Shown: positions 1,149 through 4,464 of the stretch, in pieces
Layout: every line of letters starts with the position of its first letter
Position numbering within the stretch: position 1 is the stretch's first letter
Source: Colius striatus
Taxonomy: Eukaryota > Chordata > Aves > Coliiformes > Coliidae
Assembly: GCF_028858725.1 (NCBI RefSeq)
Contig: NC_084766.1
Location: forward strand, 22,794,501-22,858,500
Direction of reading: 5' to 3'
DNA length: 64,000 bases
Notes under the pieces: generated by a model
What the model was told of the DNA's origin: nothing
Databases searched by the model: none
Seen by the model: only the letters and a program-made list of their open reading frames with translations
Program-made: the position numbers and the translations under genes

Positions 1149-1211
1149 CAAGAAATGATATCCATTCATGCCCACTTTTTCTACAACCACAGCAGATTCA
1201 GGCATTCCAAA
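1149..1211 (-). CDS. BLNK: BLNK-like coding exon 2 (middle of SAM domain)
   Basis: This exon has 63 bases and 21 codons, phase 0 at both ends. It has a strong acceptor (ttttttcctcatctcag) and a consensus donor (TTG|GTAAGG). It encodes FGMPESAVVVEKVGMNGYHF plus one more leucine. The closing GMNGYHFL fits the SAM pattern in which a helix ends in G-x-x-h-L (compare HIDGARFL in SLP-76). The following exon, expected to start with a polar N/S-h-T/S-x-x-D motif, is not recognisable in 1-1148 and probably lies off the left edge. Confidence 0.78.
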
Positions 1212-3739
1212 CTGAGATGAGGAAAAAATAGAGTTATTATAGTAGTACAAAACTTGACTTTTGTAAACAAACTAACATTTCTATGCTCAAATACTTGGGG
1301 TTGTGGAAAATCTTATACTATTTTATATGGATAGCTAGAAAAATATTGAATAGAATAATTTTAATACTTAGAAATAGGTACTGACTTCCTCATGAGAGAT
1401 AAGACAGTATTACCTCTTTCTTAGGAAGGAAGATTACAGAGGATAAGGGCTGATAAAATCATGAATGGAATAGACAAGCAGCACATGTAGCATAAATAAA
1501 ACAAATTGCCCAACAGAAATACGCTGTGGAGCTTTAATTGTTTTGGGATATGAGGAGCTTATATTGTTTTGGGATATGAGGATGACACTAGAAGCAGGTG
1601 AAGAGTTAGCTTCTGACAAAAGTCCCTCAGTAGCTGTGCCATCAGCTCAGGAAATGTTTATGTCACTGACTGCTGGAAAATGAAGCTTATCTAAGAGAAA
1701 GCTCTGTCATTACACAGTATGTGAAGACATACTTACAAGGTATCATGATCTGTATGTAAAAGGTGACAAACTGAGGTTCTAGAGGTAATCCCAGTTTTGG
1801 CACATTTGAGTACTTGTTTCTGCAGCTTTAACAGTATTATTTTAGCATTCATGCACATGTATGCCCAGCCTAAGTGGGGGAGATCCAGCACAGACCCTGG
1901 TGCGTGTGCTGACTGTGGAAATGATGGTGGTATCTGATGCTGAGGCTCACTGGAGTGCTATTAGTGAGACTGGAACAACTTTGTGTGTGGTAGCTGCAGG
2001 CAAATGGCTGCTGCTCCCCCCACCCCTCCCCCCCACCCACCCCGTGCTAGTCTTTGAAATGCAGAATGGCAAAGCACTTAGTGTTAGTTATACTGTAGTA
2101 AGTAGATCACTTAGCTGCTTTAATCAATTATGTGAGTGTAAGCATGGGCATTAACAGCATTTTATAAAGCTGGAAGACTCTCTCTTAACAAATACAAGGC
2201 CAGCAGTTGTGGCATGCCTGCTGAAATTTCCCTGGAAGCCTCTGAATTGTTGAACAATTGTTATTAATTTTTTGTCATGTATTCTGCTGTAGAATTGCAG
2301 TGTACTTTAAAATCATTACATAGTCTATTAATTAGTCTGATTTCCTTTAAGCTGAAAGCTAATTAATCCTCCAAGTAGCTGTTCACAGTAATAAGTTCAC
2401 AGTTTAGCTGATGCATTATCATTATGGTGTGAATTAATTCCATGGAACAGGTTATCTTTCTCAATAAGGCGACAACAGTCTGCCCGTGATACATTTGCAT
2501 TGTAAAACTTTGTCATTTGTTTTTGTTTTGTTTTTTTTTTTAAATTCTACACAAATGAGTGTATGCATTTATTCACCAGGCAAAATGGAAAAAAAAAATA
2601 CAAAAAGAAAATTTTAAACTTTGACCTACTTTTTACATGGCGACAAATGGAAGCCTTGAGGAAACACTTCATAACAGTGTAGTATTTTCCTTGAAAAAAG
2701 TTGTGTATTCCTTTGATTGAAAATGGTGAAAAACTTTAATGACAATAAATTCTCACTGTTGGTATGAAGCCAGTACTGAAAAAGATTTGTGCTTCTACAA
2801 TTAGAAGTAGGATGAAAATAAGGCAGATAATCCCTATATCTAAAAATATATAGGGAAACTTGCATTAAAAACCTGTAAAATCAGACTATATATCTAAATG
2901 CAGTGAATGGACTTCATAGTGTAAGTTACAAATTGAAGTCCAAAATCTCAGTCCCAGTATTCAAAATCTGAATTATTAAAAAAAAGAACATAGGATATAT
3001 CACAGAGGATAAATATTGGAGAAGATTATGCAAGTAGTGAATCGTGATGCCTGAAGTGAAACTTGGAATATTTTCTGTAATTCAGCTTACTTGCCATGTA
3101 AGTAAGGCCATTGCAGACGTACATGAAAACATATAAGCAGTCAAAGGAATGATTACTAAGTAAAATAATCTCAAGTACCTTAAACTTAAGCAACATCTAG
3201 CAACTACTGTGGGTATATATGCATTGAGAACAAAAGTTGAACAGTAAATTCTTATTGACAAGCTTAACATTTTAAATGAATATTAAAATATAAAATCTAG
3301 ATTCACTTTCAATGCACAATTTCTTCTCAGCAGGAGCTAAATTGGGGCATGAAACACATTTTCTATTATAAGAAATATCCCTATGAGCAGACATTTTTAT
3401 ATGATTTGCCAGGTAGGAGATCTTAGCTAGCAGCAGTTACCATGGATAAACTTTCTATGAAAAACAGGAAAACACCAAGAAACTCAGATAATATTAATAA
3501 GATTTTGGGAGTGAACAATTGCTGACTAACCTGTTTTCAGTACTTTTGAATATCTATACTAGATTTAGGACAAGATATTGGTTTTTCAAGGATAAATCCA
3601 GTAAGAGTTTCTTTTAGCTGAATATAGACTGGACTGTCTAAAGTATCACGTATACATTCAGTACCTGTCTCAGGAGATCTGCAACTTGAAAAGCTGTCCA
3701 GTTCTCAAATTCCTCTTGAGATGGTAGTTTTGTGGCCAT
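1149..3739 (-). CDS. BLNK: BLNK-like adaptor, SAM-domain 5' exons (partial gene)
   Basis: Two minus-strand coding exons (3665-3739 and 1149-1211) join in phase 0 and give 46 residues that read as the start of a SAM domain (FENWTAFQVADLLRQ, then FGMPESAVVVEK). The second exon is 21 codons. By my recollection this equals the second SAM-coding exon of LCP2 (SLP-76), which carries LNYKDCEKAV at the matching place. The SLP-76 family contains LCP2, BLNK and CLNK. BLNK is preferred because BLNK lies head to head with DNTT in mammals and DNTT is the next gene here. BLNK is a cytoplasmic scaffold that SYK phosphorylates after B-cell receptor engagement; it recruits BTK, PLC-gamma-2, VAV and GRB2. Human BLNK, as I recall it, starts after the SAM region, so this is a longer form. 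The tyrosine-rich and SH2 parts lie beyond position 1. I am sure these are real exons, fairly sure of the family, and less sure of the name. Confidence 0.72.
1531..1582. repeat. 26-base tandem duplication
   Basis: Two adjacent 26-base copies (1531-1556 and 1557-1582) share the core ATTGTTTTGGGATATGAGGA and differ at about two bases near the left of the unit. It lies within the BLNK-like intron 1 and looks like a recent local duplication. Confidence 0.85.
2015..2043 (-). other. C-rich tract, possible G-quadruplex on minus strand
   Basis: This is a nearly pure C tract broken by single A or T bases. On the minus strand, which is the sense strand of the BLNK-like gene, it gives at least four runs of three or more G with one- or two-base loops. 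That is the canonical pattern for a DNA or RNA G-quadruplex. It lies in intron 1, about 1.6 kb after the start codon. Function is not shown. Confidence 0.6.
3665..3739 (-). CDS. BLNK: BLNK-like coding exon 1 (start codon, SAM helix 1)
   Basis: This exon is 25 codons from ATG to a CAG|GTACTG donor. The ATG has A at -3 and G at +4, a strong initiation context. An in-frame TAA about 65 bases upstream shows that this is the first usable ATG of its frame. The peptide begins MATKLPSQEEFENW and ends VADLLRQ, an acidic lead followed by the aromatic and leucine pattern of SAM helix 1. The exon ends in phase 0, which matches the next exon. No acceptor precedes the ATG within the open stretch, so the 5' UTR is probably continuous here or is spliced farther upstream. 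Confidence 0.75.
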
Positions 3740-3760
3740 GTTGCCATCCAGTGAGAAAGA

Positions 3761-3766
3761 CACGTG
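3761..3766. promoter_or_regulatory. CACGTG E-box just upstream of BLNK-like ATG
   Basis: This palindromic CACGTG lies 22 bases upstream of the SAM-exon ATG on the minus strand. Such sites bind USF, MYC/MAX or TFE3-type factors. A six-base match alone is weak, and whether it lies in promoter or 5' UTR is unknown because the transcription start was not identified. Confidence 0.25.
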
Positions 3767-4464
3767 ATCTATATGAGTAACGTTGGACTGTTGCTTCACT
3801 GATTTTTACTGACCTGCTGTGGAAATTCTAGCAGGAAGTCCTTTTTGCAACTTTTTTCCTGTTTGCTCACTTAAAGTGAACGCCTGTGAAGGGTGATTTA
3901 GGAAGTACCAATATTCTTCTGTGAGTGACTTTCCAGTATAAGGAAACTTTATGTCAGCATAGGCAATATCTTCCATTGCAAATTCTGCTGAAAAACAATG
4001 CATAAACTATTTCTCAGTCATCAGCATCTTAGAGGTTTAAATGTGGAAACAGTGTTTCATATCTATTACAAAACCAATTCGGGATAGCTGTCCCTTGCCT
4101 ACCTTGAGAAACTTGATCCAGTTGCTTGGATCTGCCTTTAGATTACATTTGCCTTGCTTGTGGGTTTTGATGTGTTGTGCTGTGGATTTTAGACAGGAAA
4201 AATAGAGCTCAATTTCTCAGTTTACTTCCATATTGTCAAGTCATTCTCATTCTTCATATCAAGTCCAGTCATTGTACTTTTCAGCCTGAATAAATCAGTT
4301 ACTCTAGGGCAGTCTAAAGTTTTAGGGTGGTTGTTTTTGTTTGTTTGTTTGGCTTTTTTGTTTGTCTGGGGTTTTCTCCTTGTTGTTATTACTGCTAAAG
4401 AAAAAATTGTCAACAGATTAATTCCGATGTCGTGTTATCTTTTCAAAAGGCAATGATAACATAA

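Follow-up and report, generated by a model that had tools for sequence, protein, structure and literature searches.

The two minus-strand exons described here most probably form part of an alternative 5' end of bird BLNK (SLP-65), the gene for a B-cell signalling adaptor related to the T-cell adaptor SLP-76. This gene would have two starts, of which one yields a complete, protein-clustering SAM domain and the other only the fifth helix of that domain; we put the probability of this reading at roughly 0.8. The exons with their phases and reading frame, their similarity to the SAM domain of SLP-76 and the synteny of the locus can be read directly in the genome. The window is the whole stretch of 64,000 nucleotides that was analysed (C10:22794501-22858500, in a genome of 1.21 Gb in 191 contigs), and the 100 kb to its left were read in addition. 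Negative coordinates lie left of the window, coordinate 0 being the base just left of base 1.

Results

The BLNK and DNTT locus

A human DNTT probe matched seven plus-strand exons at 33177-60890, the first of which is identical to a chicken TdT sequence at 53/67 residues. Beyond human residue 336 this probe gave no credible match in the window, and DNTT appears to run past the window's right end. A search of the 100 kb left of the window with a human probe located BLNK on the minus strand: in the order of that strand, MDRLNKLTVPAGEKLR at -48646 and RKLQKMVHDIKKNE at -66464 are followed by exons of the acidic tyrosine region, roughly between -75 and -78 kb, and by those of the SH2 domain between -94.5 and -96.5 kb. 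The probe did not bring out the exons for human residues 39-51 and 204-337. With DNTT on one side on the plus strand and BLNK on the other on the minus strand, the synteny that had led the first-pass annotation to name BLNK holds. Rfam gave no match at gathering score in the whole window.

The window contains two exons of SLP-76 type

LCP2, the gene for SLP-76, was located on contig C11 of the same genome and its SAM region was read exon by exon. Its SAM exons measure 78, 63 and 47 nt and end in phases 0, 0 and 2; the third ends in CC, and the A of the following exon, the helix-5 exon, which begins IVSKLSQEINKNEGR, completes a proline codon (CC/A). The length of 21 codons given by the first-pass annotation for an LCP2 SAM exon is thus that of exon 2 in this bird, and the SLP-76-family phases that it had assigned to the two window exons are indeed those of LCP2 (0/0, in exons of 75 and 63 nt as against 78 and 63 nt).

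Table 1. Features of the BLNK 5' region in window coordinates.
Feature	Position	Strand	Description
SAM exon 1 of BLNK	3665..3739	minus	75 nt, 25 codons; ATG at 3739; helix-1 region; phase 0 end; counterpart of LCP2 exon 1
SAM exon 2 of BLNK	1149..1211	minus	63 nt, 21 codons; starts and ends in phase 0
Intron, SAM exon 1 to 2	1212..3664	minus	2453 nt
Presumed leader/promoter of SAM start	3740..4239	minus	GC 0.39, CpG observed/expected 0.22; no CpG island
SAM exon 3 of BLNK	-27427..-27473 (L004:2527-2573)	minus	47 nt; phase 2 end; 27 kb left of window
Usual BLNK first exon (MDRLNK), coding part	-48646..-48692 (L006:1308-1354)	minus	47 coding nt; phase 2 end
BLNK exon 2	starts -66466 (L008:3534)	minus	aligns with LCP2 helix-5 exon; acceptor 4.9

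Both window exons look like genuine phase-0 exons (Table 1). SAM exon 1 encodes MATKLPSQEEFENWTAFQVADLLRQ and has a weak donor (GTACTG, score 0.9); SAM exon 2 encodes FGMPESAVVVEKVGMNGYHFL, follows a polypyrimidine tract with CAG (acceptor score 6.3), has the donor GTAAGG and closes with GYHFL, the LCP2 counterpart of which is GQRFL. The 46 residues of these two exons alone matched no Pfam family, and a search of them against the PDB gave only three chance matches to FtsX and none to LCP2, so that the case becomes strong only when SAM exon 3 and BLNK exon 2, both left of the window, are taken into account.

Just upstream of the SAM start, the minus strand holds an open frame of 66 codons (window 3806-4006) containing a 56-codon ATG frame, MEDIAYADIKF..., in which we read an ITIM-like IxYxxI motif. 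This frame had no Pfam match and a best PDB match of E 0.15; it would be an upstream open frame if transcription begins above it.

A probable third SAM exon lies left of the window

The third exon was sought on the minus strand between SAM exon 2 and BLNK exon 2 among candidates of 38-71 nt, entered in phase 0 and left in phase 2, neither splice score being negative, ranked by their similarity to SAM third-exon peptides. The best of 17 candidates, NISDYELSRFKIMHQ at -27427, has a similarity of 18, the next having 9. As controls, the plus strand of the 164-kb region yielded 30 candidates (best 7) and the remaining minus strand 28 (best 12); at the LCP2 locus the true exon ranked first with 76, which, this exon being itself a query, shows only that the scan works. 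Given that one of 60 first-order random sets contained a candidate of at least 18 (it scored 32 and was 53 nt long), similarity alone does not place exon 3 beyond chance. Support is added by its exact length, by its strong acceptor (10.6) and by what follows it, namely the split codon CC/G, a proline parallel to CC/A in LCP2, and the helix-5 exon. Length and phase are also those of LCP2 exon 3, and the three BLNK exons together show the SLP-76-type pattern of phases 0/0/2 with a second exon of 63 nt and a third of 47 nt. A tblastn match of LCP2 third-exon peptides at -24373 proved a false lead, no fitting exon being present there.

The weak donor of SAM exon 1 would suit a fossil, i.e. exons that formerly belonged to BLNK and are now untranscribed and still recognisable. 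The state of the three exons argues against this, since their frames are open, their borders are GT/AG and their phases are those of LCP2. Moreover, BLNK and SLP-76 separated before the origin of jawed vertebrates, so that sequence long free of selection would no longer be alignable, although a recent loss is compatible with the data. On balance we consider a fossil improbable.

The SAM exons probably join BLNK exon 2 as an alternative to the usual first exon

When the range from exon 3 to the BLNK 3' end was scanned with LCP2 helix-5 queries only, BLNK exon 2 came first among 297 candidates (26, with the next at 14). At the DNA level SAM exon 3 joins this exon in frame, and the acidic tyrosine region and SH2 domain lie beyond; the proposal that the SAM exons attach to BLNK is borne out to this extent. 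Against the reading of the SAM exons as a BLNK start stand the length of the introns between the parts of SAM-BLNK (28.6 and 39.0 kb), the weak donor of SAM exon 1 and the lack of a CpG island at the SAM start.

The usual first exon, which encodes MDRLNKLTVPAGEKLR and is SAM-less, lies 52 kb downstream of SAM exon 1. The region of its ATG is CpG-rich (GC 0.70, observed/expected 0.81), as compared with GC 0.39 and CpG observed/expected 0.22 in the region from -500 to +100 of the SAM ATG. It has a good donor (6.7). Of the acceptors in the preceding 60 nt, the best lies 54 nt before the ATG and has a moderate score of 2.9; because this is below the acceptors of SAM exon 2 and BLNK exon 2, the MDRLNK exon is taken as a first exon. 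Direct splicing of SAM exon 2 to it is unlikely given this acceptor and the 18 in-frame residues, which have no evident SAM similarity. The usual exon and SAM exon 3 have the same coding length and both end in phase 2, which makes them interchangeable ahead of exon 2. Descent of the former from the latter was considered and rejected, the peptides not being clearly alike. The N-terminal 38 residues of the usual form matched no Pfam family.

The first-pass annotation had suggested that birds keep a SAM-bearing BLNK. This stands insofar as the SAM exons are in frame with BLNK; it does not stand as a replacement of the mammalian form, the MDRLNK exon being present as well. Since the bird also has this mammalian-type first exon, we favour the view that the SAM exons provide an alternative start.

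The distance of about 52 kb from SAM exon 1 to a usual start with a CpG-rich region of its own could instead indicate an independent gene lying between BLNK and DNTT, either an additional SLP-76-type gene or one for a short SAM-only protein. We regard this as quite unlikely: in the scan as far as the BLNK 3' end no helix-5 candidate ranked above BLNK exon 2 itself, and the phase and the split proline fit that exon. In addition, the 84-residue peptide obtained by joining the exons (MATKLPSQEEFENWTAFQVADLLRQ-FGMPESAVVVEKVGMNGYHFL-NISDYELSRFKIMHQP-KLQKMVHDIKKNESG...) matched four places in a genome-wide search, all four being exons of the BLNK locus; this result leaves room for another copy, because short exons can be missed in such a search and LCP2 was missed too.

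The joined peptide resembles the SAM domain of SLP-76

Taken together with exon 3 and BLNK exon 2, the window exons do encode the SAM-domain start that the first reading had seen in them. Against the PDB, residues 4-76 of the joined peptide aligned without gaps on residues 12-84 of 2EAP, the SAM domain of SLP-76/LCP2 (E 5.4e-6). The seven matches otherwise comprised four non-SAM chance matches (E 0.04-0.34) and two other SAM entries (E 0.92 and 1.1), an FtsX match at E 0.04 ranking between 2EAP and the latter; the LCP2 SAM is thus the closest solved SAM. In Pfam the joined peptide passed SAM_2 only at the border, its 20.5 bits over profile positions 2-65 of 66 just equalling the cut-off of 20.5, as compared with 40.7 bits for the bird's LCP2 in the same search; the SAM_1 cut-off of 23 was not reached by the joined peptide (19.3) and is also failed by bird LCP2 (21.1).

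Aligned without gaps to the bird's own LCP2, the joined domain is identical at 20/77 residues (26%), and the two have 22 hydrophobic columns in common, 11 being expected. The BLOSUM62 score of the whole domain is 94, and 20000 shuffles gave a mean of -68, a standard deviation of 18 and a maximum of 8. By exon, identities and the number of 20000 shuffles reaching the ungapped score were 4/25 and 2 for SAM exon 1, 7/21 and 0 for SAM exon 2, 4/16 and 6 for SAM exon 3, which had itself been picked by such similarity, and 5/15 and 18 for BLNK exon 2 against the LCP2 helix-5 exon. An accidental resemblance to the SLP-76 SAM, to which the shortness of the exons and the lack of a relevant database match for the 46 residues alone would lend themselves, is very hard to reconcile with four consecutive exons agreeing in order, strand, length, phase and sequence, with the E value for 2EAP and with none of the 20000 whole-domain shuffles coming near the observed score.

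Discussion

Combining the exon structure with the similarity data, we suggest that BLNK of this bird has two alternative N termini: (i) in a transcript starting upstream of 3739, SAM exons 1, 2 and 3 (75, 63 and 47 nt) would be spliced to BLNK exon 2, so as to place a complete SAM domain ahead of the ordinary adaptor with its acidic tyrosine region, proline-rich region and SH2 domain, and (ii) in the usual transcript the MDRLNK... exon, ending in phase 2, would replace SAM exons 1-3 and give a form that keeps only helix 5. Both transcripts are presumably made. The SAM form may self-associate in the way SLP-76 does, and the short form may use helix 5 for membrane association or for weaker self-association.

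The SAM domains of BLNK and SLP-76 (2EAP) share the phases 0/0/2, exons of 63 and 47 nt, the split proline and an ungapped alignment. They differ in that BLNK SAM exon 1 is one codon shorter, in that the BLNK domain is only 26% identical to that of bird LCP2 and in that it is attached to BLNK, where it is one of two starts, whereas LCP2 is known here from its SAM start alone. The usual form of BLNK/SLP-65, whose N terminus goes by the names of leucine zipper or lipid-binding region, comes from the same gene from exon 2 onward, and the helix KLQKMVHDIKKNE is common to both forms; unlike the SAM form, the usual form begins MDRLNK... and is without SAM helices 1-4. Human BLNK begins MDKLNK....

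These relations suggest that the N-terminal helix of usual BLNK represents what was the last helix in an ancient SAM domain. Given that BLNK exon 2 corresponds to the helix-5 exon of LCP2, the SAM form would be the older and the short form its truncation. To us the odds appear evenly divided on a wider proposal, according to which the N-terminal helix of mammalian BLNK is SAM helix 5, helices 1-4 having been cut off when a new CpG-rich promoter and first exon arose, and birds encode both forms from two promoters; promoter choice would then decide whether BLNK acts as a SAM-clustering or as a vesicle-binding adaptor, perhaps depending on the cell type or on the stage of the B cell.

What is reported on the two adaptors bears on the possible functions of both forms. 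The SAM domain of SLP-76 is required for self-association and microclusters; SLP-76 without helices 1-4 still self-associates, in smaller clusters and with stronger signalling, and self-association is impaired once helix 5 is deleted (PMC3795252). A further binding partner of the SLP-76 SAM is the kinase ACK1 (PMC5391757). The N terminus of SLP65/BLNK is called a leucine zipper (PMC4850452), and SLP65 minus its first 45 residues is described as showing no vesicle attachment, granules or support of calcium signalling (PMC7016142). The dN57 deletion protein of SLP-76 is, like the usual BLNK form, without helices 1-4 and with helix 5 kept; unlike that form, it is a laboratory construct (PMC3795252). 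Given that the natural short BLNK parallels this helix-5-only construct, a direct functional comparison is possible.

Invertebrate relatives also combine an N-terminal SAM with an SH2 adaptor, as bird SAM-BLNK does. Such a SAM is described for amphioxus slp76, which also has a WW domain (PMC5431462), and for the BLNK-like sea-star protein XP_038070561 (PMC11593052), in agreement with an ancestral SAM. Sea-squirt slp76, described in the amphioxus paper (PMC5431462) as having neither SAM nor WW, weakens a simple version of this scenario. Among the matches listed from the open-access literature, no title or abstract opening concerned a SAM domain in vertebrate BLNK, and the portions of PMC12133306, PMC3870970 and PMC2718928 available to us contain no mention of SAM in BLNK.

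If chicken has these exons, DT40, a chicken B-cell line in which BLNK has been studied, may contain an unstudied SAM form. A difference between their N-terminal anchors is usually held to set the adaptors BLNK and SLP-76 apart; should the bird gene make both N termini, the two anchors would be one structure, whole or truncated.
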